The notes under the pieces are model-generated. The model did not search any database, was not told the DNA's origin, and was given only the letters and a program-made list of their open reading frames with translations. This document shows, one piece after another, positions 9,066 through 33,200 of a stretch of 35,454 bases of DNA. Both the position numbers and the translations under genes were made by a program. Position 1 is the first letter of the stretch, and each line of letters begins with the position of its first letter. The DNA comes from Thermoplasmatota archaeon (GTDB lineage: Archaea > Thermoplasmatota > E2 > DHVEG-1): assembly GCA_030619765.1 (NCBI GenBank), contig JAUXAU010000032.1, positions 1 through 35,454 of the forward strand. The letters are read 5' to 3'.

Positions 9066-11834
9066 TTATTTACCTCCTGTAAAACCGATACCTTCGTTAT
9101 CTACACTATACCTTGTCACGATGCCACGCTCCAAAAGCACCTTAAGGTATCTCTCAGAGTCGGTTCTCGCTAATGCACAATTTAAAAAAGCTAAAAATCT
9201 TGTTTCAGAGACTCGACCTGTCTTGCCTCCTTGTTGCTGGATGTACCGTTCTATCTTTTCTATGTCTACCTGTTGAATTTCTAAATCTGGTGGATCTTTG
9301 TTATTTTCTTCTTTTTGTGGTGCAGGCGCATCATCTTTCCAGATTTTATAGGGTAGAAACACCCCGTACCTAGATCTTCCCCCAATCTTCCACGACCCCA
9401 CCAATTCTTTCACGGGTATGCCAGTAATCACGTTTATGGCTTTAGCTATATCTGCTACCTTGTCTATCTTACTGTTTTTAGTTTGCTGATACTCATGCGT
9501 TATCGCTGAGGTTATGATATCCCCTCGATACTCTGGTTTGTTCGGTAGTTCTTTATCCTGAGCCCAGATATTGTTTATCCCTCGAATCTGCTCTTCGGAT
9601 TGGCCGCTATCGAAGTATATTCTCGTTATATTCTGCACCTGCCACATCTCAAACCATCTAAGAAAATGCATTACTGGTGGTTCCCTAGCATCTTTTGTAC
9701 TTGTTTCAATGTGATCGATAACATTTTTTACGAAATCTTCATACGATGGTGCCCGCCATTCTAAACCGTATTTGATTGCAGATGATTCCCATATTTTTAA
9801 TCCTTCAAAAATGGCGGACCATGCTACTGCTCTCCGTGGATCAAAAAAGTCCGTGTACAGCCGCCTAATCTCTTTCTCGTGATTGGCTATTCTCTCCAAT
9901 AATATATCAAGCGAATGGTTGACATCCTCCAGTTCAATTTCTGCCAGCCGCCAGCCGATAGGAGTTAGTCTGTTCAGGGTCTCTGATAGTTGTTCCACCC
10001 GATCATCACTCCCTGCTCTCCCATCAATAACTGACGCGTCAAACTCGTCTTTAAATATCCGGACAAGCGTGTTTTCACCCATAACTGGAAATCGGTTGGA
10101 ATTGATACCCAGTACTGCTCTACTGAGGAATTGCGCTGAAGTTTGATCTGCCCTTCCTCTCACGTTGCAGAGATAATTTTCCGGGGTATCTCTCAATATC
10201 GCCTCCAACTTCCTCCAGTTGACATCATCGGCCTCTTCAACAACCTGATATGCACATATCCCGTCATATGCTAAACTCAACCGGAACTCTGAGTCGATAG
10301 AGTTACCGTTTAATGGGAATATACTAAATAGATACATCGAGAATATCTTCTCCACCGTAGACTTTCCGAGGTGTGTTGCCGGTGAAAAATTCCATATGTT
10401 TGGAAACATCTTTCCGTGCTTTCGTAACATAAGGACAAATGGCGAGATTGCTCCAGTGCCCATACTTGGCAGGATTTCATAGTCATGCCAAAAGTTGGTC
10501 GTGTCGAAGTATGCCTTCAAGGATTCCTTTGTTATCTCTTGTTTTATTGAGGGTTCGCATTGTGCTTTTATTCTTCTTTGTGCATCATTGATCGGCATCG
10601 CATCGAGGCATAGTTCCAGTCTATCGCCTTCTTCATATACCCCGGCGGTAGCATGTCCCGTTCTTGTTGGGAGATCTAGGAAAATAGCATTGATGCAGTC
10701 ATCGATTTTGTTTTTATTTAAGACGCCACCACCCTTTTTGATATCCCGTATAATTCCGGGCATGTCTGCGATTCTCTCTTGATCCCCTTGGTATAGGAAA
10801 ACAGTGAACTCGCCGTCAATTACCAGCTTCTCCATCGGTTTAATATGACCATGGAAAACTTTTTGCGGTGCCCATTTCTCGTTTCCGTTTTTATCCACCC
10901 CAATCATTTTATCGAGGAATACGCCTGTATCTGTGTGAACCACAATTGTCGTGTTGTCGGTGTATACCTCTTGGATCACATCCTCTTCTTTGTATTGTCC
11001 CAACCGCTGGGTTTTTTTATGCTTCCCTTTTCTATATTGCTTGGGTTGTTGTTCTTTTTCCTTAATGGGGTCTGTACTGAATATGTTGGTCTCCTGTAGT
11101 TGTAATAGTATGGGAGTGAAAATCTTTATGATCTCATCTTTTTCCGTTTTATCTACTACATCCAGTGAGAGGTAGATTCCCTTGAAGAATTCCTTCCGCT
11201 TGTTCTCGCGTCTGAAAAAATCTAATACCGTCTCGTTTTCCAATCCCTTCTTATCATCTGTAATGATGTAGCATAGCAGTTTTTCCTCGTTCTGTTTGAA
11301 TTTAATCTGGTGTTTTTTTCCGTTATATTCGAACGAGAACAGTGTAAGATCGTCTTTCCTTTTCCTTTCTACATACTCCAATGGGTTGGCGATTTCTTTG
11401 CAGATGTCATCATGATGGCATATGCCAGTTTCTCCCATCTCACCGTGTGGAAACCCTGACCCCTTCTTTTGGATTTTCTTGCAGCTGAAACAGATCATCT
11501 TGCGGAACCAGGACTTAAAAATATTTGATGATGGTCCCCCTAGTTGTTCTGAAACTTTATTGAATAATTTTTTTGCTTTTTCTTCGGGCCATCCCACCTG
11601 TCCAAGAAATGAGACGAATAATGCTTTCCACCTTGCTCTCCCAATCTTCGGGTGGTATGCTGCTAAAATATGCATGATACATGGTGGGAAATATTTTATA
11701 TCTGCCTCATATTTCAGTATGGTTACTTCACGCTCTCCATCATCTTGATAATCGCCCACGTCGATCTGGTCTTCATATTTTTTCAGTATTATCATGAGGT
11801 TTTTTGCTTCGTCAGATCTTTCTACTTCATCCAC
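9066..11834 (-). CDS. Replication protein: N-terminal PriL-CTD-like Fe-S domain plus C-terminal D5/SF3-like AAA+ helicase
   Basis: PPCIMHIL...ICFSCKK...GICHHDDICKEIANP cysteine set; Walker A-like SPATHLGKST, Walker B-like YQVVEEADD, sensor-like AVLGINSNRFP. Confidence 0.7.
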   Translation of the reverse strand: MDEVERSDEAKNLMIILKKYEDQIDVGDYQDDGEREVTILKYEADIKYFPPCIMHILAAYHPKIGRARWKALFVSFLGQVGWPEEKAKKLFNKVSEQLGGPSSNIFKSWFRKMICFSCKKIQKKGSGFPHGEMGETGICHHDDICKEIANPLEYVERKRKDDLTLFSFEYNGKKHQIKFKQNEEKLLCYIITDDKKGLENETVLDFFRRENKRKEFFKGIYLSLDVVDKTEKDEIIKIFTPILLQLQETNIFSTDPIKEKEQQPKQYRKGKHKKTQRLGQYKEEDVIQEVYTDNTTIVVHTDTGVFLDKMIGVDKNGNEKWAPQKVFHGHIKPMEKLVIDGEFTVFLYQGDQERIADMPGIIRDIKKGGGVLNKNKIDDCINAIFLDLPTRTGHATAGVYEEGDRLELCLDAMPINDAQRRIKAQCEPSIKQEITKESLKAYFDTTNFWHDYEILPSMGTGAISPFVLMLRKHGKMFPNIWNFSPATHLGKSTVEKIFSMYLFSIFPLNGNSIDSEFRLSLAYDGICAYQVVEEADDVNWRKLEAILRDTPENYLCNVRGRADQTSAQFLSRAVLGINSNRFPVMGENTLVRIFKDEFDASVIDGRAGSDDRVEQLSETLNRLTPIGWRLAEIELEDVNHSLDILLERIANHEKEIRRLYTDFFDPRRAVAWSAIFEGLKIWESSAIKYGLEWRAPSYEDFVKNVIDHIETSTKDAREPPVMHFLRWFEMWQVQNITRIYFDSGQSEEQIRGINNIWAQDKELPNKPEYRGDIITSAITHEYQQTKNSKIDKVADIAKAINVITGIPVKELVGSWKIGGRSRYGVFLPYKIWKDDAPAPQKEENNKDPPDLEIQQVDIEKIERYIQQQGGKTGRVSETRFLAFLNCALARTDSERYLKVLLERGIVTRYSVDNEGIGFTGGK

Positions 11835-12691
11835 TGTAATCCCCCCTTTTTGATCTCATCCCTCAATGGTATCAACGCATCGGCCAGGTTTATCTTGATA
11901 TTAACAGTATCCAACGGGATAACTGCAAATGGATACCGGCTATGGACACTGAACAATGACTTGAAAAGCCGCTTTTGATTATTGATGGCATCTGCTTTTA
12001 CTTTCTCCTTATGCTCGGGATATTTTTTGAAGAATTCCTCCTCCAGTTCTTTAACATACGCGTTGAAGCACCCCGTCAACATTCGCCATGAGTATTCCCG
12101 TTTTGTATCGGTGCTGAATGTTTTCGCGAAGATCGCGTGGTGGATGAGGATATAGATTCCACCACCACTGAACGCAGCATATACACTGGTGGGACAGGTT
12201 TCCCTAAACTTGTCTGCATAAAACTGCGCCATCGCCTCAACTGCTTTTTTGGTGTTGGGTTGCCATATCTCTCCTTTACCGTCAATGTCCACTCCAAGAG
12301 TATATGCACCGCAATCTTTGAATGTTCCCAGCCGTTTGTTTTCCTCATCTGATGGCCTGGTCTGATATTTTAGTTCCTGCTCAAACAGATTAAGTGTCGT
12401 ATAAAGAGTTCTTCCTCCAGTTTTTATGAGATATTCATAATCCTCCCGATCGGATGGAACCCATAGTCGTACCATACCGTTTTCTTCCTTGTACCAGTTA
12501 AATTTATCCATATTGCCTGCCCTGAACAAGGTCCGATACTGCGACCATGCTATGATAGCTCTACTGACGATCTCATCTTGATAATGGGCAATAATTGCAG
12601 CTCTTGACAGTTTGATATTTGCCAGGTCCCGATCTGACAGTTTTGCCCCTATTATCCTCGGTGGCACTCCCAATCTTTCTTCATTGGTCAT
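11822..12691 (-). CDS. Archaeo-eukaryotic primase (PriS-like) catalytic subunit
   Basis: Motif I TLGVDIDGKG (DxD), motif II FSGGGIYILIH; 3' end overlaps the primase-helicase gene. Confidence 0.7.
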   Translation of the reverse strand: MTNEERLGVPPRIIGAKLSDRDLANIKLSRAAIIAHYQDEIVSRAIIAWSQYRTLFRAGNMDKFNWYKEENGMVRLWVPSDREDYEYLIKTGGRTLYTTLNLFEQELKYQTRPSDEENKRLGTFKDCGAYTLGVDIDGKGEIWQPNTKKAVEAMAQFYADKFRETCPTSVYAAFSGGGIYILIHHAIFAKTFSTDTKREYSWRMLTGCFNAYVKELEEEFFKKYPEHKEKVKADAINNQKRLFKSLFSVHSRYPFAVIPLDTVNIKINLADALIPLRDEIKKGGLQWMK

Positions 12692-13431: not shown

Positions 13432-13995
13432 ATGACTAAAAAGCAAGTTTCTATTAAAAGACGGTCTGTCTCCGTATATCTGCCTACAAACAAGATGGTT
13501 GATAAATGGAAACGGTTGGCTGAAAAGGCAGGTCTTTCTCGGTCTCAGTATGTCCAAAATATTGTAGAGAAATATATTAAAACCGAGGAAGCACATCGTA
13601 TTCTATCTCCTTTATATAAAGAATTAGATGACATAGAAAGAGAGCAAAAACAATTAAAAAAGGATGCTTTATCGCAGCAAGAACAGATCAAGATACTTGG
13701 TTCTTTGACTGATGAAGTGGAAAGAGAGCAAAAACAAATAGACAACGATATTTTAGATGTATCAAAACAGGTCATTATGCTTGGTTCTTCGAATGAGGGG
13801 ATAGATATCCTATCTGATATCATTGACTTTTTGAAAGAACGAGATGTTGTTGAGGAGCAGGAATTGTTAGATATTTTTTGTGTTGATCATGGTAATACTG
13901 GATCTGAATCTGTGAAAGTTGTGAATCAACTTCTGGAAGATATGGTCAATTTCAATCTTATCAAAAGAAGTAATGGAGAAATCATCTGGGTATAA
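13432..13995 (+). CDS. RHH-type DNA-binding protein with coiled coil and C-terminal wHTH-like domain
   Basis: N-terminal SVSVYLPTNKMVDKWKRLAEKAGLSRSQYVQNIV; strong similarity to ORF 26044-26586; TATA box AAATATATATAGG about 40 nt upstream. Confidence 0.75.
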   Translation: MTKKQVSIKRRSVSVYLPTNKMVDKWKRLAEKAGLSRSQYVQNIVEKYIKTEEAHRILSPLYKELDDIEREQKQLKKDALSQQEQIKILGSLTDEVEREQKQIDNDILDVSKQVIMLGSSNEGIDILSDIIDFLKERDVVEEQELLDIFCVDHGNTGSESVKVVNQLLEDMVNFNLIKRSNGEIIWV

Positions 13996-15212: not shown

Positions 15213-16532
15213 TTATGCTGGTTGAAATGGTTCCAGGACTCTTTGATTTTGATGCTTTTTCTTAACCATGTCCCACTGTTTTGACATTTCCTTATCTGCT
15301 TTCTCTCCTAGTTCTGGGTTGTTAGACAGAAGCTTACCAACATTCTTTTTAACTATTGACATTTGCATTTCTCGTATTTCATCTCTTCCCAATAACTGAT
15401 TCTGTTTGGTTCTAATGTCGAATAGCTGTTGATCACGTAATGAGATTTCTAATCTTAGCGCTTTATTCTCTTCCGATAACTGATTCATTTTTTTTTCAAA
15501 TTCGTTTTTCAAATTTTCCATGCCGTTTTGAATTATATCTTCAGCTTCTTTATTCCGTATCTCAAGTTCTTCGCGGCTGGGTGCTGTTGGCCCATCTTCA
15601 CAGATCTTCCTGCGTAAATCTTCCTTGGTTGTTAGGTCATATTGTTCCCTTCTGCTTGGCACCTGTTTTACTGTCCAGCCGAAAAAATCTGCTATCATCG
15701 TGTCAGTGAACTTTGGCTTCGAGAACATTATAGTAGCGCGTGTCGCTCTGAAGTTTTTTGGTTTAATGGTTGATTTTACTCCTGTTGTGCGCTTGATTAC
15801 TCTTTCGAGATGCACCCTAACGCATTGGGGTGTCATCGGGGTCCCCTTTCTCGTTATCCATAAGGCGTGTTTTGGATTATCTCTGAATGGGTGTTCTTCC
15901 AACCATTTCATCAGGTGTGCTGGAGGATTTTTTTCTAAAGTGATTATCCTCGGTATTGTCTTGGATCGGTAAACCGTTACTTCATACCCCTGTACACCGT
16001 CCTTATCAAACCTATTGACGCCTCCAATCTTCATGCTGCACAACTCGTCGTTTCTGCCACCTGAGTAATAAAACGTTTCCCATAATGCCTTATCCTGTGT
16101 ATCCCTAGAGGCTCGTATAATCTCAGCATATTCTTCCGGTGTGATGAACGCTTTTTCTTTCCATCCTGGTTCCTTATCCTGTGCCTTTTGGGCTTTGGTT
16201 TGGTATTCATACCACTCCATAATCTCTGGTTGTTGTTTTTTTTTCAACTTCAGGAGCCATTTGTAGAAAACCTTAATATGATTCGCGTCGATATCGCAGG
16301 AGATTTTTTTCTCATTTTTGCATGCCTCTTTGAAAAATTTCTCTAGATCTTCTTCTGTTGCCTTTCTAAAGTTTTTTTTCCCGAGAAACCGTGCGAGCTT
16401 TACCAGAGTACCTCGGTCACTTCTGATAGTCTTTTTGGCTCTTTGTCTGCCTCTCCGGAATTCCGTAAACTCCTCAATAAGCTTTCTGTTTTTCTCACTT
16501 GCACCCCTCCAATCTATTTCAGGACGACTCAT
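15213..16532 (-). CDS. Tyrosine recombinase/integrase with C-terminal coiled coil
   Basis: SGGRNDELCSMKIGGV, RSKT, KNFRATRATIM (HxxR position reads NFR), FGW, candidate tyrosine REQYDL. Confidence 0.75.
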   Translation of the reverse strand: MSRPEIDWRGASEKNRKLIEEFTEFRRGRQRAKKTIRSDRGTLVKLARFLGKKNFRKATEEDLEKFFKEACKNEKKISCDIDANHIKVFYKWLLKLKKKQQPEIMEWYEYQTKAQKAQDKEPGWKEKAFITPEEYAEIIRASRDTQDKALWETFYYSGGRNDELCSMKIGGVNRFDKDGVQGYEVTVYRSKTIPRIITLEKNPPAHLMKWLEEHPFRDNPKHALWITRKGTPMTPQCVRVHLERVIKRTTGVKSTIKPKNFRATRATIMFSKPKFTDTMIADFFGWTVKQVPSRREQYDLTTKEDLRRKICEDGPTAPSREELEIRNKEAEDIIQNGMENLKNEFEKKMNQLSEENKALRLEISLRDQQLFDIRTKQNQLLGRDEIREMQMSIVKKNVGKLLSNNPELGEKADKEMSKQWDMVKKKHQNQRVLEPFQPA

Positions 16533-16783
16533 CTCAGCACCACCAAATCTATAACTTTTGTGTGTTTATAAACATACTCTTTTTGGTTTCTTTCAACTCC
16601 AAAGCATTCGAAAAACGTATGTTTAGTATTATTTATGTTTTTTGTGATGTCGCCATAATCGCCCCTCTCAAGCTTTTTCCCGATCAGATCCGCTAGATTT
16701 CCTTTTTGTGCCATCATTTTAGGTTTTCCATCTATGATGTCGGTTGGCATTCCTGCATTTTCGTAGTTTTGTTCTGACTCCAT
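16529..16783 (-). CDS. Small hypothetical protein overlapping the recombinase start
   Basis: ORF track. Confidence 0.4.
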   Translation of the reverse strand: MESEQNYENAGMPTDIIDGKPKMMAQKGNLADLIGKKLERGDYGDITKNINNTKHTFFECFGVERNQKEYVYKHTKVIDLVVLR

Positions 16784-17035
16784 TTTTTCACGTCCATTAA
16801 TTTTTTTTATTTATAATATAGTATCTATTTTATAACCTTATATATATTTCTATTATTATACCTTGGGGTAGTATCGTCACATACGACATAGCACAAAAAA
16901 GACATGTATACTAAACACCTACAATATTATCCAAAAACCCCTTTTTCAACCAAAACCTTACTTACCGACTGACAAACACTATTTACAGTTTCAACTCTTC
17001 CATTGTTTTTTCTTCTTTGATGTTAAGGATGCTCT

Positions 17036-17791
17036 TTATCGTACCGTTACATCTGAACCTGCTAAGCGAATATACCTGCTAGGCATCTGTGAATTTTTAC
17101 TCCATCCAAAACGATCACACAGCATAAACTCGTTGAGTCCCTTGCTTGCACACATAGCGGCACTATTACGCCTGAGATAATGCGGGGTAATATTCTTCTT
17201 GACACCGCTATCTTCAGCAATTCGCCTTATTATGTGAGATATTAGCGTCCTAGAAATTGGCGTATGTGCTGGATCTTTCACTTGAGTTGATTTTGAATAG
17301 ATAAAATACGCTTCGGGATCGTCTTTGTACTTGTGATGATTTAAATATTCCTTGATATATTGTGTAGAACTGGGGATAAGAAAGAGATGTACTTTCCTAT
17401 GCCTAATCATGCCTTCCGACAATATGAAGTAAGCACCGAGTTTGTCAAAACCAATGTTCCGTATTTTCATCTTTGCCAGTTCTAACATTCTTATCCCTCC
17501 GTCCAGTAGACTGCAAATGATGACCTGTTCTCTGGTGTCCTTACAAGCGTCAAGTAGTTTTTTAATATCTTCATCCGTAAGCATTTCCTCTATCGGCAAC
17601 CCGATGTCCTTGGTTATGGATCCTGTAGCCTCAATATTTTCTTCCTTGTTTTCTTCTATCATAAAGAATGTGATATAACAGGGAGCAATTAAACCTTTCT
17701 CCCTAAACGTTTTCAATAATGTTGAATGTGGTGCCCCAGTTTTAAGAGAAAAATAACACAAATTTGAGTATAGACTTACAGTTAATTGCAA
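17036..17791 (-). CDS. Tyrosine recombinase, short (251 aa), catalytic-domain dominated
   Basis: LLDGGIRMLELAKMKI, ITPHYLRRNSAA, FGWSK, SRYIRL. Confidence 0.75.
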   Translation of the reverse strand: MQLTVSLYSNLCYFSLKTGAPHSTLLKTFREKGLIAPCYITFFMIEENKEENIEATGSITKDIGLPIEEMLTDEDIKKLLDACKDTREQVIICSLLDGGIRMLELAKMKIRNIGFDKLGAYFILSEGMIRHRKVHLFLIPSSTQYIKEYLNHHKYKDDPEAYFIYSKSTQVKDPAHTPISRTLISHIIRRIAEDSGVKKNITPHYLRRNSAAMCASKGLNEFMLCDRFGWSKNSQMPSRYIRLAGSDVTVR

Positions 17792-18105
17792 GGTGGACTA
17801 AAACGAAGTTTTATGCTTCTTGATTTATTATGTCTATTTCAGATCGATGGTATAGATGGGGGCATACCATAAAACTAATCTTTTCAGTTTGCATCAGCGA
17901 TCCTCTTTGAAATCGGTTTTTTTTTAATTTCCTTAATTTTCTATTTTAGGACGATTTAAAAACGGTTTTTCCATCGTGCTTACTAAGGCACCTATGTTCT
18001 ATTGTTGGCGCTGAAATTATTGTTTCCTGCCCCAGATCATAGCAATCAGCAAAAAATTAAATGGATTTATCAGGATTTTTTCATAATTCTGCTGGAATCT
18101 TTACG

Positions 18106-19979: not shown

Positions 19980-20066
19980 TTATATCACCTCATCATTTTT
20001 TTGCTCTTTGTTTCAAATCTATCATCATCGACTATGTTTGATTCAACCTCTGTCTTAATAAAGAGT

Positions 20067-20236
20067 ATTTTAATCCCACTGTGGTCTTATTCTAACCTTA
20101 ATTATTCCAAAAAGCACATAACTCTCTCTATACGATTTCAATCCCACTATGGTCTGATTCTTACTATACCAGTTTTTATTTTATAAGGTAAGAGTTCTTT
20201 ATACATATTTCAATCCCACTATGGTCTGATTCTTAC
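20067..20236 (-). CRISPR. Mini-CRISPR: three 30-bp repeats (20067-20096 degenerate, 20135-20164, 20207-20236), spacers 38 and 42 nt
   Basis: Repeats 2 and 3 are identical: atttcaatcccactatggtctgattcttac; repeat 1 differs at 4 positions; minus-strand repeat ends ATTGAAAT, like the known 8-nt crRNA handle ATTGAAAN. Confidence 0.8.
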
Positions 20237-20368: not shown

Positions 20369-21550
20369 TTAAGCCAATTTTTTCAGCTTTCTGATCAATT
20401 TTTTATCGGCTATCTTGTCTGGTAAGTTACCATGAATATTCATAATTAGACCTTTAACTTCTTCAAAGCGATTCTCTATCTCTGTCTCAACTGTTTTAAA
20501 TCGCTGGTCCGTATCTGTCTTAGATGACTTTAGTTCTTTTTTCAGATAAAAGATCTCTTCGTCTTTCTCTGCAAGCCTTTCCTCTAAATCAGTGGTGTCT
20601 GTTGGTATGTCAAACACTGCTATGGTGTGCACTGCTTTTTCATATAATTCAGCGAGCTGCTCCTGTGAGTATCGCCTGTATGCCACGGTAAGATAGCCTT
20701 CGTGCCCCATCAATGCTTCAACCACATCAACCGGTATTTCAAGAGACATTCGAGTTCGATAGTACTTCCTCAAAGTATGTATGTGCATTTTATGACGATT
20801 TGTCCGTTCCTCCTTTTCAGTAAATCCTGCTTCACGTGCCAACCGATTCCACATAATAAGAGCGGTTGCATACGTGAAAGGGAAAATATAGGGGTTTTCT
20901 GCTGTTTTTGTGTAGTGTTTGAAGTTTGTTCTTTTTACTGCTACTCGCAGGTATTCCTTTCTAACTTTTAGCCATTCTTCCAGGTAGGTTTTTGCTTCTT
21001 CGCTCATGAATGCTATTCTTGGATTGCCTGTTTTGGTGGTTTCGCCGCGTATGTTGATTTTAACTGGTTTGCTGTCCAGATCTATGTCTGATTCTTTCAG
21101 GTGTAGTATCTCGTCTATCCTCATTCCGGTGCTAGAAGCTATGAGAAATAAACTGTGTTCTTTTACTCCTCCATGGGTGAGTATCTTTTTTAGCTGTGCA
21201 TTTGTTGGAACTATATCCTGTGTTACGGGTCTGTTTCCTTTTGCTCGTTTTTTAAAGTTTTTCCATATCTTCGGCTTGATATTTACATCGTTTTCTACGA
21301 GGAATGTCCTTACACATGATATCCTCATATTTCTTGTACAAGGTGGTTCGTCGATTATTGCTTTCCAGAATGTTTTTACGTCCTGCTCATGGTCACGGCC
21401 GTTGTTGAAGTACTGTTCTGGGTCTGCTTCTATGGTGTTGAAAAATTTTTTTAGATGGCCTCTGTAGCTACTGCGTGTTGAACTGCTAGGGTAATCCTCT
21501 AGGAATTCTTCTATTTTATTCATTACTTTATCATTCATTACTTTATTCAT
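20369..21550 (-). CDS. Tyrosine recombinase (XerC/D-like) with C-terminal coiled coil
   Basis: SSTGMRIDEILHLKESDID, TKTGNPR, HIHTLRKYYRT, LMGHEGYLTVAYRRY; TATA box GATATATAAACC about 30 nt upstream. Confidence 0.85.
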   Translation of the reverse strand: MNKVMNDKVMNKIEEFLEDYPSSSTRSSYRGHLKKFFNTIEADPEQYFNNGRDHEQDVKTFWKAIIDEPPCTRNMRISCVRTFLVENDVNIKPKIWKNFKKRAKGNRPVTQDIVPTNAQLKKILTHGGVKEHSLFLIASSTGMRIDEILHLKESDIDLDSKPVKINIRGETTKTGNPRIAFMSEEAKTYLEEWLKVRKEYLRVAVKRTNFKHYTKTAENPYIFPFTYATALIMWNRLAREAGFTEKEERTNRHKMHIHTLRKYYRTRMSLEIPVDVVEALMGHEGYLTVAYRRYSQEQLAELYEKAVHTIAVFDIPTDTTDLEERLAEKDEEIFYLKKELKSSKTDTDQRFKTVETEIENRFEEVKGLIMNIHGNLPDKIADKKLIRKLKKLA

Positions 21551-26043: not shown

Positions 26044-26586
26044 ATGACTGAAAAACGAACTTCAATAAAAGAAAGGTCCATTTACGTGTATGTGCCTACA
26101 AACAAGATGGCTGATAGATGGAAACGTTTGGCAAAAAAATCAGGGCTCTCTATATCCCAGTATGTCCTAAATATCGTAGAAAACCACATCGGAGATGAGA
26201 GTATGGCTGCCTCCCAAGGGAATTTAGACAAACGGTTAGGTGAGTTGGAGGGGCAAAACAGCCAGTTAAGGAGTGAAAACCTTGCTCTCTCCAAGCGAGT
26301 AAAAATGCTGGATATATTGACTGATAGGTATGAGGAAGACCTCAAGAATTCGAGAAACCGTCAACTCCAGGATGAAGGTTCTTTTGAGGGTGACAGAGAA
26401 TATGAACCTAAACTCACCAAACTCCTAAAAGAAAGAGATATTGTCAAGGAGCATGAATTGCTCGATCTCTTGCACATTGACCCGGGTGATGCTGCATCGG
26501 TACGGGCTATAAATCAGCAGTTGGACAATCTCTTCAGTTATGGGCTTGTTAAGAGAGGTAAGGGGGGTCTCGTATGGATAAGATAA
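26044..26586 (+). CDS. RHH-type DNA-binding protein with coiled coil and C-terminal wHTH-like domain (paralog of 13432-13995)
   Basis: SIYVYVPTNKMADRWKRLAKKSGLSISQYVLNIVENHI; overlaps the recombinase start. Confidence 0.8.
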   Translation: MTEKRTSIKERSIYVYVPTNKMADRWKRLAKKSGLSISQYVLNIVENHIGDESMAASQGNLDKRLGELEGQNSQLRSENLALSKRVKMLDILTDRYEEDLKNSRNRQLQDEGSFEGDREYEPKLTKLLKERDIVKEHELLDLLHIDPGDAASVRAINQQLDNLFSYGLVKRGKGGLVWIR

Positions 26587-27907: not shown

Positions 27908-28384
27908 TTATTTTTGTTTCATGCTTTTTATTAATTTTCTGCCTTTCCGTGTTAACTCAATATCACTAACCTTTCTAGAACCTTGATACCAAAGATCTTT
28001 CATTTCATTGTTCTCCCAATATGTAGTTAGAAACTCCCTTTTCAACACAACAAATCCTTTTTTTTCCAAATTACGAATACTTCTACTAAAAGAAGATTTT
28101 AAACTCCAATCGTACCATATTGGATTAGGATTAACCATTCTAATTAAATTTCTCTCATGTGCCGATATGCTCTTCAAATCATCAGGTTTTAATCCATATT
28201 TTTCTCTGGATTTTTCATAGATGCTTCTCCAATCATAGAACGGGTTTTCTTCGTGTGATTCTTCTGCAATTACTTCAAGTATTATTCTCTGTAATTTACT
28301 TAATCGTTCTTTACTCATAATATCCTTAATGTTAATACAGTATATTAACTTTAAGAAAATTACCTTATCCTTACAACCAATCAT
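27908..28384 (-). CDS. wHTH-like hypothetical protein, 158 aa
   Basis: SRSIRNLEKKGFVVLKRE...ELTRKGRKLIKSMKQK. Confidence 0.6.
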   Translation of the reverse strand: MIGCKDKVIFLKLIYCINIKDIMSKERLSKLQRIILEVIAEESHEENPFYDWRSIYEKSREKYGLKPDDLKSISAHERNLIRMVNPNPIWYDWSLKSSFSRSIRNLEKKGFVVLKREFLTTYWENNEMKDLWYQGSRKVSDIELTRKGRKLIKSMKQK

Positions 28385-28651
28385 CTATTGTTTTCTTTTG
28401 TTTTGGTTGATTAAAACTTTGTTTACGGTGTTTCCCCTGTATATCTCTTCTATTTCAATTATTTTTCTCTTATTAACAGTTGGTATCCCTATTATCCATA
28501 CCAAGCAGTTCCAAAAGTGTTTCCCGAGAAACACTTTTTTCACTGTATTGATATACCTCATATGCCCTTTTATCGTTGTTAACAGTAGGTTGGTTTTCTC
28601 TTATACCTTACGAAATTGATGTTTACATTGAAGTAAATGAGGAAAAATTAT

Positions 28652-28667
28652 ATAATCAATTGATTAT
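28652..28667. promoter_or_regulatory. 16-bp palindrome ATAATCAATTGATTAT overlapping the probable TATA region of the MT-A70 gene
   Basis: Perfect palindrome about 30 nt upstream of ATG 28696. Confidence 0.45.
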
Positions 28668-28695
28668 TTAATCAAAATAGATTAGGAGATTACTG

Positions 28696-29274
28696 ATGAC
28701 AATTCCGTTCCCACAAAAAAGATATAAAATAATATATGCGGACCCTCCTTGGAGATTTAAAACTTGGAGTGCAAAGGGTAAAGGTAGAAGTGCTGAACGA
28801 CATTATAACACTATGTCTTTAGAGGACATCAAGAAACTGCGTGTTGCGGATTTAGCAGATGATGACTGTGCATTGTTTCTATGGGCAACACAGCCAATGT
28901 TAAAACATGCATTAGAAGTTTTAGACTCATGGGGTTTTTCTTATCAAACTGTTGCGTTCGATTGGATCAAAACAAATAAAAAATCCCCAGGTATTTTTAT
29001 GGGGATGGGTTACTGGACAAGATCAAATGCTGAATTTTGTCTTCTTGGGATAAAAGGATGGCCAAAAATCATAGACGAAGATGTGTCAGGATTAGTAATT
29101 AGTAAAAGAAGAGAGCATAGTCGAAAACCAGACGAAGTGAGAGAAAGAATTGTTCAATTGCTGGGGAATTTACCACGGATAGAGCTTTTTGCTAGGCAAC
29201 GTTTTCAAGGATGGGATGCATGGGGAGATGAAGCGGATTTAAATACTACACAAGAGATATTGCCAAAGAGATAA
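28696..29274 (+). CDS. MT-A70 family N6-adenine methyltransferase
   Basis: IIYADPPWRFKTW (DPPW), ALFLWATQPMLKHALEVLDSWGFSYQTVAFDWIKTNK, SRKPDEVRERIVQLLG...ELFARQRFQGWDAWG. Confidence 0.9.
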   Translation: MTIPFPQKRYKIIYADPPWRFKTWSAKGKGRSAERHYNTMSLEDIKKLRVADLADDDCALFLWATQPMLKHALEVLDSWGFSYQTVAFDWIKTNKKSPGIFMGMGYWTRSNAEFCLLGIKGWPKIIDEDVSGLVISKRREHSRKPDEVRERIVQLLGNLPRIELFARQRFQGWDAWGDEADLNTTQEILPKR

Positions 29275-30937
29275 TTCGTTATATTCTCTACTAGTTCCGG
29301 AGAAATCTCCGGAAAAAAAAGAAAGAAGAGTATCTGTTGAGAAAATATAGAAAAAAAGGAATATTTGCTAATTCCAAAAGCGTTTCTAAAGAAACACTTT
29401 CTTTGCGCTCTCCTGTCATTTCCAAAAGTTTGTCCCGGGCCATACTTTCTTTTTCCCCTATTTGAAAAAGGGACGCGTCCCCTTTTGGCAAAATATCGAC
29501 ATATCCTAAACTCTATATCTATTTTATATACTGTGTAACGCTTTTAAAACCGTTACAGTATATTTAAAGGTTAAGGAGAAACTTGAATAAAGGTACTACA
29601 TCTTATCTGTGGCACGGATAGGTCTCTTTGGGAATTATTTTTCTGTCACAGAAAAAAAAGGAATAGATGTTAACTCTAAAACTATCTCACGTCGAAACTC
29701 CCCTCCCTTTTATAAATTCATTAGTCGAAAAACAATAATATATGATACAACTTTCGACGTGTTTGTTTATAAAACCATCTCTCTTTTCGACGTTAGTATG
29801 TGTTATTCAGCATTCCCCCATTAATTTGATATCAACCCATCGGAGAACGGGTCTCTTGTGATCACCATATCTAAATCGCCGAGAGAAAAAAAGGAATAGA
29901 TGCTAATTCTAAAAGTATTTCGGACGAAATACTTTCTTTGCGCTCTCCTGTTAATTCAGAAAGTGACACTTGGGTGTCACTTTCTTCGCAGAGAAAATAT
30001 TAGTATTATGTAGCTTAGAAAGCTCTTGGTATAATTTTTTATTAATTTGTATTTCTTACACATTTTTACGCATTTATTCGTATTCTTCTTGTGTTGAATA
30101 TGGGTGTTAAAGCCTTGTCAAAAAGAAATAGTTGCTAAAATGAAAAGTTATGCCCATGGGCGTAAGTTATCGACGCGTCGATAATTTTGACATGCATGAA
30201 AATTTGCTGACGCGTCAGCAAGTTTATCTTTTACCTCTTTTTTGAGTTTTGCAATACGCAAATGTCTATAAAAGAGAGTATAAGGAATGGGCGATAATAT
30301 TCCCATAGGGAGTAATATATAAATAAAGGAATTTTTTAGTAACTAAAAAATATCGTTTTTAATATTTAATGAGGATGATGTAATTGTTAGACATCTACTG
30401 TTATGAAAACAGGTAAAGTTTAAATATGGGTTGTTTGCCGATTTCTTAAGGAGGGCATATCTTATCTTGTGGCTGCCACAGGATAAGGAGAAAATATATG
30501 TATATCGGTAAATCAAAAGGAACTGGTTCTGTTTTGGCTACGACATCATTGCCGTATACAAAGAAAATCTGTACTGACGTCGGTACAGGGGTCTAAATAT
30601 GAATGATGGTGTAGATGAAAATAGTGCTAGCACTATTTCTGCTTTGAAAATGTTAGTCACTAACATTCCCTGTGTAGATGAAAAGAATTATGAATTTCTT
30701 TAGTATTAAAGTTTTTCATAATTTCGGTAGAGAAAATATAGAAAATGGAGAGAAATCTCTCCAATTTAAAAATGTAACCGGTTACATTCCAGACGGAGAA
30801 GAAAACTCACAATTATCAATAAATGTGAGAATATCCTCTTTTATATTCTCATGGAGAAACCGTGCTTTGTCAAACTGTGTTTGTGGTTCAAGAAGCGAGA
30901 AATATATAGATATTAGAGTATCATTCACATACAATTG

Positions 30938-30997
30938 AAAATCTAAAGAACTTTAAAAATTCAATTTTTTAAGGATCTAGATCTATATATTAAGAAC
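30938..30997. repeat. Direct repeat IV copy 1: aaaatctaaagaactttaaaaatt...ttaaggatctagatctatatattaagaac
   Basis: Near-identical to 31831-31889. Confidence 0.85.
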
Positions 30998-31203
30998 GTC
31001 GCCATTAGTTAAAACATATTTTCGGGGGTAACAAAAAAGACAATTAGTGTTATTTTAAGCAAATTGTGTAAAAACAGTAAAATTACTGAAATTACACAAA
31101 TGAGTGATTTTGAGTAAAAATCCGAAATTTCTGAAAATTACTAAAATGACTAATTTTGAGCCAAAACCATAAAAAACCATATTTTCTCTCAATTACACTA
31201 ATC

Positions 31204-31520
31204 TATGTTATGTTCTATATTATAATATAGATAACCTGGATTATAATCCAGCATTAAACCAGGACCATAATCTAGGTTGTATCCAATATTATAATCTAGG
31301 TAACATGGATTATAACCGTTGTTATAACCTTCGTAACATAGGTTATACCATATGTTTGAACATCGTCTTGAACCTATGTTGTAATCAATGTTATAACCTT
31401 TGTAATATATGTTATAAGGATGGTTATACCTTTCATAAGGATGGTTATACATTACATTTGAATGTTACGTATGACTTACCTCGTAAAGATGGTTATACCT
31501 TTCATAAGGATGGTTACACC
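31204..31520. repeat. TTATAA-centred degenerate tandem repeat block (GGTTATAACC / GGATTATAATCC variants)
   Basis: CTATATTATAATATAG 31215-31230; CTGGATTATAATCCAG 31236-31251; aaggatggttatacctttcataaggatggtta duplicated at 31416-31450 and 31485-31520. Confidence 0.7.
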
Positions 31521-31830
31521 ATAGTTAAAACATAGTTTCTCTCTTTTTCTACAGTGAATAATAAAAAAAAGGAATAGGTGTTTTATTTTCATTTACGATA
31601 ATTAAATGTTTTTGTAATTTTACAAATACCTTTAATCTGTCAGAGAAAATATAGGAGCAGGCAAAGGAACAGCAGAAAAAAAAACCAGTTTTTGTTTCCC
31701 CAATGTTGGGGAAACAGAAAAGCAGGTAGAAAATATATACTATCAGTGAGAAATATATAGATACACCAATTGCGTTAATTGACGCAAATGACGATAGGCT
31801 TGATAGATGAGACAGTTTGATTAACTACCA

Positions 31831-31889
31831 AAAATCTAAAGAACTTTAAAAATTTGGTTTTTAAGGATCTAGATCTATATATTAAGAAC
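31831..31889. repeat. Direct repeat IV copy 2
   Basis: Near-identical to 30938-30997. Confidence 0.85.
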
Positions 31890-32441
31890 CGGTTCCATTT
31901 TACACCATAGTTAAAACATATATTTTCTCTCTTTCTCTATTCATATATATATTTTCTTTTGGTCCTGAACCATCTCTCTTCTTTTTTTGGCTTCCTAAGC
32001 CATTTTTCCTATATTTTCCCTCTTTTTCTCTACTAAAAAAGGGATAGTTGCTAAATGAAAAGTTATGAATGCATCCATAATTTTGACATACATAGAAACT
32101 TATCGACGCATCGATAATTTTGTCATACATGAAAAGTTATGCCCATGGGCATAAGTTACCGACGCGTCGGTAATTTTTACATACATAGAAACTTACTCCT
32201 GCAGGAGTGAGTTTATCTTTTGAACTTTCTGTGAGTATTCTTATGTTGGTACAGGATGTGATTATTAGGCCACTACTGTTACGAAAACAGGTAAAGTTTA
32301 AGTACGGGTAAAATGTCGATTTCATAAGGAGGGCATAAGATAATGAACAGCTGCTGTTCATTATGGAGAAAATATAATATATTAGGTTGTATTCAGGAAG
32401 ACAACGGATAAGAGTTCAGAGTCGCTAAAGAGGATTTGATA

Positions 32442-33200
32442 ATGGAACCATTTAAAATGGCGTACGATGGAGCTATTACTATATTTTCTCCTGATGGGAG
32501 ATTGTTTCAGGTGGAATATGCTCGGGAGTCGGTAAAAAGAGGAACCACTACAGTTGGAGTGAAATTTAAAGATGGTGTGGTATTAATTGTGGATAAACGA
32601 ATTATTTCTCGTTTGATAGAACCTATTTCTATTGAGAAGATCTTTCGGATAGATGAATGCATTGGTTGTGCTACGTCTGGTCTTGTTGCTGATGCACGGG
32701 TCATAGTGGACAGAGCTCGTATGGATGCGCAGATAAATGAGGTAACCTATGATGAAAAGATACCGGTTATAACTCTCGTGAAGCGTATCTGTGCTTTCAA
32801 GCATGCGTACACCCAGTATGGTTGGGTGAGGCCTTTTGGCACTAGCCTCCTTATTGCAGGTGTTGACGAGACAGGATCGCATTTGTTTGCTACCGATCCA
32901 TCTGGTGCTTTTATAGAATACAAGGTAGACAGCGAGGGAGAAGGCCGTAGTGGTGCTATGGTGTATTTCGAAGAAAACTATAAAGAGGATATGATGTTAG
33001 CAGAGGCTATCGATATGGGTATAAAGGCTATTCATAAGGGTAATGAAGGGAGATTGAATCCTGACGCGGTTGAGATAGCAGTTATCGATGCAAGGGAGAA
33101 ATTCCGGGTATTGCCACGTGATGAATCAAAAAACTATGTAAAAAAAGCAATGGAGGAAAAAATTTATGGCAGAAGAAAGAACAGAAGAAAGAACGGATGA
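32442..33200 (+). CDS. psmA: Proteasome subunit alpha (ORF track starts at 32436)
   Basis: [43 protein letters not shown]. Confidence 0.9.

Follow-up and report, generated by a model that had tools for sequence, protein, structure and literature searches.

A palindrome array with conserved frames and variable symmetric cores in a Thermoplasmatota archaeon

Introduction

Protein-binding dyads normally repeat one sequence. The locus described here raises the question of what kind of element keeps its surroundings and yet has its symmetric cores replaced pairwise, with very few asymmetric intermediates. It lies between positions 28,380 and 32,440 of a 35,454-nucleotide stretch of DNA (the window), which is contig C38 of an archaeal bin of 3.17 Mb. 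Dyads, iterons and integrative elements are known kinds of feature; to our knowledge, a diversified, frame-conserved bank of sites has not been described.

An excess of distinct palindromes

A sequence-only reading of the window had claimed more than 20 perfect or near-perfect palindromes in this region, and the nine that it quoted all lie where it had placed them. The region contains 28, against a mean of 1.35 (maximum 4) in 40 shuffles, and 17 exact palindromes (arms of at least 8, loop of at most 2), where 30 dinucleotide shuffles average 0.53 and never exceed 2; the excess over dinucleotide shuffles is about 20- to 30-fold. Shuffled sequence of the same composition thus gives far fewer palindromes, and the array is real. 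The rest of the window (about 31 kb) has one exact palindrome. The density of exact palindromes is 4.7 per kb in the window array and 6.8 per kb in a related array on contig C52, compared with 0.15 per kb in a genome background of 316 kb sampled from other contigs of the same bin, which makes the arrays 30 to 45 times as dense as the background. The exact palindromes of the arrays are all distinct (40/40), and the other element and intergenic DNA sampled from the bin is without such arrays. The region had also been called non-coding, but it does contain open frames: the MT-A70 gene is inside it, and one palindrome family is located within short ones. The features are listed in Table 1.

Table 1. 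Features mapped in and around the palindrome array (positions are those of the window)
Position	Strand	Feature	Basis or comparison
28380-32440	.	Palindrome array region analysed, non-coding apart from the MT-A70 gene	Palindrome excess over shuffles
28513-28538	.	Palindrome AAAAGTGTTTCCCGAGAAACACTTTT; core 28518-28533 TGTTTCCCGAGAAACA, arms identical to consensus parS arms	PMC7383237 consensus
28696-29274	+	MT-A70 family N6-adenine methyltransferase, 192 aa	Pfam PF05063 E=8e-32; phrog_359 E=1.6e-83
29295-29314	.	Palindrome TTCCGGAGAAATCTCCGGAA; C52 counterpart TTCGGGAGAAATCTCCCGAA differs by one compensated pair	
29349-29451	+	Header and two palindromes, frame copy 1	78% identity to 29884-29986 over 103 nt; 84% across the first 81 nt
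29534-29557	.	Palindrome TGTAACGCTTTTAAAACCGTTACA around a TATA-like core	Copies in G007:C90 and G012:C43, two other genera
29684-29800	.	Inverted iteron-like cluster CGTCGAAA / TTTCGACG with an AT-rich core between	Inverted repeat I16
29884-29986	+	Header and two palindromes, frame copy 2	Pairs with frame copy 1
29916-29931		TATTTCGGACGAAATA, exact arms of the Noc-binding-site consensus, inside frame copy 2	
30118-30232	+	Header and three AAANTTA-N12-TAANTTT palindromes	Alignment A1; 82% identity to 32129-32221
30377-30500	+	Frame AAGGAGGGCATA, 27-bp palindromic block, GGAGAAAATATA; copy 1	Compared with the 32318 copy
30608-30789	+	In-frame palindromes AAATAGTGCTAGCACTATTT, AATGTTAGTCACTAACATT, TGGAGAGAAATCTCTCCA, AATGTAACCGGTTACATT	AAATAGTGCTAGCACTATTT in family A2
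30677-30724	-	Hairpin with covarying outer arms; minus strand reads a helix-turn-helix gene fragment IMKNFNTKEIHNSF	2 compensated pairs relative to C107 2237-2284
30938-30997	+	Shared 60-bp block ending in AAGGATCTAGATCTATATATTAAGAAC	Copies 31831-31889 and C52 7331-7389; 93-95% identity
31166-31551	.	Iteron-like zone, direct and inverted GGTTATAACC-type repeats	76% identity to C52 7483-7834; TRF array at 31414-31520
31689-31720	.	Palindrome TTTTTGTTTCCCCAATGTTGGGGAAACAGAAA; G004 has TTTCACAGATATCTGTAAA in the same frame	3 pairs changed on both sides, flanks 6/53
32034-32221	+	Header and five AAANTTA-N12-TAANTTT palindromes	Alignment A1
32318-32376	+	Frame AAGGAGGGCATA, ATAATGAACAGCTGCTGTTCATTAT, GGAGAAAATATA; copy 2, the array end, adjoining the psmA promoter region	

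Conserved frames and replaced cores

The recurrent header reported by the sequence-only reading is present in six copies (29353, 29655, 29888, 30120, 31563 and 32036) with 80-100% identity, and it also occurs on C52. The same reading had described a constant frame around self-complementary but variable cores, and this pattern is confirmed: cores vary within conserved frames. In seven homologous blocks that align without gaps, and that like the families A1 and A2 were picked by eye, so that the exact figures for blocks and families carry selection, 67 of 224 stem bases differ, against 36 of 284 flank bases (p ~2e-6); the flanks therefore drift less than the cores. Of the pair states in these blocks, 215/224 are Watson-Crick, and 30 pairs have changed on both sides compared with 7 on one side. 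The clearest case is C107 1896 versus C52 6778, where 2/30 flank positions have changed and the two palindromes have changed at 17/40, each of them still symmetric. In the 30440/32318 pair, 8 of the 12 pairs of the 27-bp block are replaced on both sides, its centre and length being unchanged, and the near-identical flanks differ at 3/35 positions.

The two frame-aligned palindrome families have covariation values of 0.52 and 0.82, where shuffling gives means of 0.23 and 0.21 and slid controls reach at most 0.13. Even the innermost pairs are complementary and covary (10/10 and 9/10 in A1; 8/10 and 9/10 in A2). Because most homologous copies align gap-free, the cores were replaced, not inserted. 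Part of the frame conservation consists of an A-tract pairing with a T-tract, that is, of the palindrome's own outer part.

A CRISPR array was rejected as an identity for the locus, since the frames are irregularly spaced and what varies is a palindrome in its own right. A MITE or insertion sequence was rejected because the cores differ in gap-free homologous blocks and there is only one possible insertion, of 20 bp.

Symmetric centres

The centres of the palindromes bear on whether they act as duplex DNA or as hairpins. Stems were gathered by 7-bp arms alone, leaving the 4-nt gap unconstrained. The gap is palindromic in 15 of 29 array stems (52%) and in 2 of 52 background stems (4%, 316 kb; p ~8e-7), where chance would give 1 in 16; in about half of the array stems it is non-palindromic. 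In a hairpin these bases would lie unpaired in the loop, and therefore hairpin RNA, single-stranded DNA and cruciform repair all fail to explain the centres. Mismatches read on the plus strand are G.T in 18 cases and A.C in 12, which is no significant strand bias, and together with the symmetric centres this fits a dyad in duplex DNA better than a hairpin RNA.

The hairpin ncRNA family that the sequence-only reading had offered as one of three hypotheses is thus disfavoured. Rfam gave no match (best E=0.68, scores far below the gathering threshold), and membership in an RNA family was rejected on this result, on the symmetric centres and on the like folding of the two strands (z-scores of -4.80 and -5.01). 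The related explanation that the stems belong to a long structured RNA, or act as bidirectional terminator or mRNA-end hairpins between convergent genes, would account for the strong folding, for the A- and T-tracts that flank many stems and for the convergent genes on either side of the arrays of C52, C107 and C86a; in addition, the single-sided changes between C11 and C86 (n=2) are G.U on the plus strand. A structured RNA would covary only in pairs that a hairpin can form and would tolerate G.U on one strand; the covariation here is strong, but it comes with symmetric centres and the 18:12 ratio of mismatches. These two observations, the equal folding of both strands and the Rfam result speak against an RNA, and we consider it improbable.

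A selection-free mutational process, such as template switching or cruciform repair, could also perfect imperfect palindromes in relaxed, decaying element DNA. Decayed helix-turn-helix gene fragments within the arrays and the large majority of double over single changes are what such a process would leave. It is nevertheless very improbable, because hairpin-based correction cannot copy a loop, yet the centres are symmetric, and because, as noted above, the arrays are missing from the other DNA sampled.

Related arrays in mobile-element DNA

Blast, pattern and all-against-all comparisons, whose evidence base is essentially one genome and short alignments, detected homologous arrays on C52 (L009 6290-7900), C107 (L010 1650-2900) and C86 (L071 3190-3480 and 7030-7420), and a partial array on C11. 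Mobile elements are the usual setting of these arrays, whose neighbours are integrases, N6-methyltransferases or small helix-turn-helix genes. Among the family relatives, frame patterns are, apart from the cases that follow, at the level of the reversed-pattern control. The genome G004 has single palindromes in recognisable frames: its contig C137 has TTTCACAGATATCTGTAAA at the position of TTTCCCCAATGTTGGGGAAA in the window, and C141 has an SD-like GGAGGGCATA frame with a TGAACAG-CAT-CTGTTCA hairpin. The 29534 element recurs in two other genera as a promoter-like element. Viral contigs gave one chance match only and phage and plasmid records matched the methyltransferase gene alone, so that, this gene aside, the locus has no catalogued relative in the Rfam, phage, plasmid or viral collections.

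The spread over C38, C52, C107, C86 and partly C11 recalls small selfish palindromic elements, like REP, Rickettsia or mitochondrial double-hairpin elements, which would invade non-coding DNA and gene fragments and keep their fold by compensation. On C52 a 20-bp insert GAAATCGAGCCGGCTCGATA stands between TCTAGATCTATA and TATTAAGAAC, and three other copies are without it, which makes one filled/empty site pair (n=1). Double-hairpin units with common linkers are also present on C52 and C107, and the palindrome family inside open frames would suit such elements as well. REP and Rickettsia palindromic elements are likewise short palindromes in non-coding DNA, some of them in open frames (PMC3733652); however, their families have a conserved palindrome, often with a GTAG/CGTC tag, whereas the sequence of the array palindromes is not conserved. 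A tagged REP family was rejected since it needs many copies of one palindrome. Mitochondrial double-hairpin or repetitive hairpin elements likewise have paired hairpins whose structure is kept (PMC2800124, PMC2670323), and in those of sponges it is the loops that take up substitutions, the stems being conserved. In contrast, the arms of the present array vary more than the flanks and the centres are symmetric, which selection at the level of the fold leaves unexplained. The distinctness of all 40 exact palindromes, the gap-free replacement of cores and the chance-level frames in relatives also count against selfish elements, which we regard as a rather unlikely explanation. The mobile palindrome family proposed by the sequence-only reading retains some support, from the spread over five contigs and from the C52 site pair.

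The genes beside the arrays display a mixed pattern. MT-A70 genes are present on C38 and C107, and C52 has an N6_N4 methylase; no methylase was identified beside the C86 arrays, which are directly downstream of integrases. The description of the arrays as lying around an MT-A70 gene thus holds for C107, and with another N6-methylase for C52, but not for C86. The array contigs also encode helicase, primase-like or topoisomerase genes, and the arrays of C38, C52, C86 and C11 have iteron-like repeats with them, both direct and inverted. An iteron-type replication origin would combine direct iterons with a neighbouring initiator gene, and no such gene was identified. Small helix-turn-helix modules and fragments, on both strands, adjoin the C52 and C107 arrays and were seen nowhere else in the loci scanned. 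Helix-turn-helix proteins of 122 aa (C52) and 100 aa (C107) are encoded by the elements, and the window also encodes small RHH-like proteins (13432-13995 and 26044-26586) and a protein of 158 aa.

Tyrosine integrases adjoin the arrays of C38, C107 and C86, preceding them in each case (twice on C86), and one integrase query has 23 matches in the bin. This would fit orthogonal tyrosine recombinase sites, in which the enzyme would bind the constant half-sites (AAANTTA, AAAGT) and the variable symmetric core would serve as overlap region. Each site would then recombine exclusively with sites of its own kind, in whichever orientation, and shuffle units or small helix-turn-helix gene cassettes. Such sites would be naturally orthogonal and directionless, and they would explain why constant half-sites enclose variable symmetric cores. 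The helix-turn-helix modules on both strands agree with this explanation, as do the differing orders of the array units and a segment that is inverted between C52 6946-6984 and C52 7330-7368. However, array palindromes do not bound the inverted segment, no recombination junction was seen, the 12-bp core is longer than usual overlaps and the half-sites vary between families. A general link of palindromes to integrases was rejected, since their density downstream of these genes is raised only slightly (0.49 versus 0.27 per kb). We therefore view recombinase sites as distinctly unlikely. Integron attC sites were also rejected: RYYYAAC and GTTRRRY occur 0 and 2 times in the window array, where about 4 of each are expected by chance.

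Candidate binding sites and their readers

The paired arm changes, symmetric centres, kept frames, mobile-element context and the helix-turn-helix genes and fragments beside two of the arrays lead us to prefer, at slightly less than an even chance, that the palindromes are candidate duplex dyads of about 16-20 bp for a homodimeric DNA-binding protein and that the array is a bank of them in the control regions of integrative elements. Among the three hypotheses of the sequence-only reading, its diversified protein-binding arrays are the best supported. The recurrence of the 29534 element in other genera and the exact parS and Noc arms described below also speak for this reading. The control regions might serve replication, partition, integration or regulation. 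A dimer would read both half-sites and so make them change in concert, and sites would diversify because their readers do, these being perhaps ParB/Noc-like or other helix-turn-helix proteins; alternatively, diversity might be driven by the avoidance of cross-talk among the many related elements of the bin.

The sites at 28518 and 29916, both in a common frame, have the exact 6-bp arms of the consensus parS and Noc sites (PMC7383237), respectively, and such exact arms do not occur in the 316 kb background. Sites for parS and Noc are likewise 16-bp perfect dyads, several per locus, whose specificity switches by paired half-site change; however, the parS copies of one genome have one sequence, whereas here nearly every site is different and the centres do not match. 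The best full-length matches to the parS/Noc consensus are 14/16 and 13/16, and most other palindromes have no match. The likeness is only a lead to a possible reader protein and does not establish membership, since cores mismatch, most palindromes are unlike parS and a neighbouring ParB could not be confirmed. Genes for ParB_N are present on C117, C16 and C107 (on C107, 13 kb from the array), none of them adjoining the window array; a ParB reading was dropped both for an L023 open frame and for the start of the C107 MT-A70 protein (its N-terminus), as Pfam supported neither.

Under the binding-site reading, the dyads might be partition or regulatory sites, or decoys. Decoy copies of operators were rejected: with up to 2 mismatches, no further copies of the array cores turned up in 1.44 Mb of other loci, save for the 29534 and 32340 elements, so that, these two families apart, decoys would have no target operators. 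The iteron and operator control regions known from plasmids and archaeal viruses resemble the array in that they are AT-rich, non-coding parts of mobile-element DNA and have both direct and inverted iterons, but they contain copies of one or a few sites where the array has more than 20 different perfect dyads. We know of no array that holds so many different operators, and this counts against the binding-site reading, as do the non-palindromic gaps in half of the stems.

If the palindromes are binding sites, the arrays would record DNA-binding specificity diversifying between competing elements in one archaeal cell and would provide a ready-made panel for testing such diversification. A bolder version, which we consider a long shot, is a dedicated integrative-element system that keeps the dyad bank, actively replaces its cores and, with modular helix-turn-helix genes, generates the specificities of sites and readers and exchanges them between elements; it would be a DNA-site analogue of a shufflon or a diversity-generating locus.

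The archaeal host and the adjoining psmA gene

Contig C38 encodes psmA, TBP and an Alba-like gene. The nearest named PsmA relatives come from 'Thermoplasmata archaeon' bins (64-68% identity). An MCR alpha gene was found neither in the bin nor in ten related genomes, and for this reason an ANME or methanogen origin was rejected. Other psmA copies of the bin are on C23 (81%) and C134 (73%), and the C134 copy scores like the main copies of relatives; the psmA gene adjoining the array is an accessory copy. The psmA-proximal part of the array end resembles the DNA upstream of the C23 copy.

Further Genes and Repeats on the Array-Bearing and Other Contigs

A single family of integrases has about 23–25 matches in each of two genomes, the bin holding the window (G000) and the related genome G004, scattered over many contigs. 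In several members from the two genomes, the protein is recovered as two in-frame matches roughly 100 bp apart near residue 210, and this gap suggests a lineage-specific insertion within the protein. Downstream of one G004 integrase is an A-rich region that is possibly the equivalent of the palindrome array in this related species. Its four palindromes have no sequence kinship to those of the window.

The inverted iterons on C11 of the bin, which carries a partial array, differ in sequence from set to set, and each set encloses an AT-rich core. One architecture with altered sequence echoes the palindrome theme of the arrays. The array-bearing contig C107 also encodes a Toprim-like protein of the Topoisomerase VI A/Spo11 type, as well as a member of the phage-type family phrog_2045.

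The proteasome alpha gene in the window is an accessory copy. Other copies are present in the bin on C23 (81%), near tRNA genes, and on C134 (73%), and the presence of three copies suggests that housekeeping genes are element-borne or duplicated. On C86, which has a related array, an Alba gene, read from the sequence alone, is truncated near its 3' end. It sits upstream of a tyrosine integrase, at a distance of about 100 bp, and is possibly an integration site.

No further copies of the TTTCAATCCCACTATGGTCTGATTCTTAC repeat were found across the bin at ≤3 mismatches beyond those at 20060–20236. The repeats sit just downstream of an integrase in the window and look like a mini-CRISPR array.

Coordinates of the features discussed
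Feature	Location	Details
TTTCAATCCCACTATGGTCTGATTCTTAC repeat	window 20060–20236	2 exact copies, upstream partial copy; spacing about 72 bp
Integrase gene	window 20369–21550	minus strand
Proteasome alpha gene	window 32436–33200	
Alba gene	C86 (L071) about 1785–1950	3' end region truncated
Inverted iterons	C11 (L200) around 16100–17800	three sets in succession: GTTCACT, GTAGGCTTT, GACGGCTTT
Toprim-like and phrog_2045 proteins	C107 (L010) 9077–11991	
A-rich region, four palindromes	G004 C125 (L213) 2160–2900	downstream of integrase
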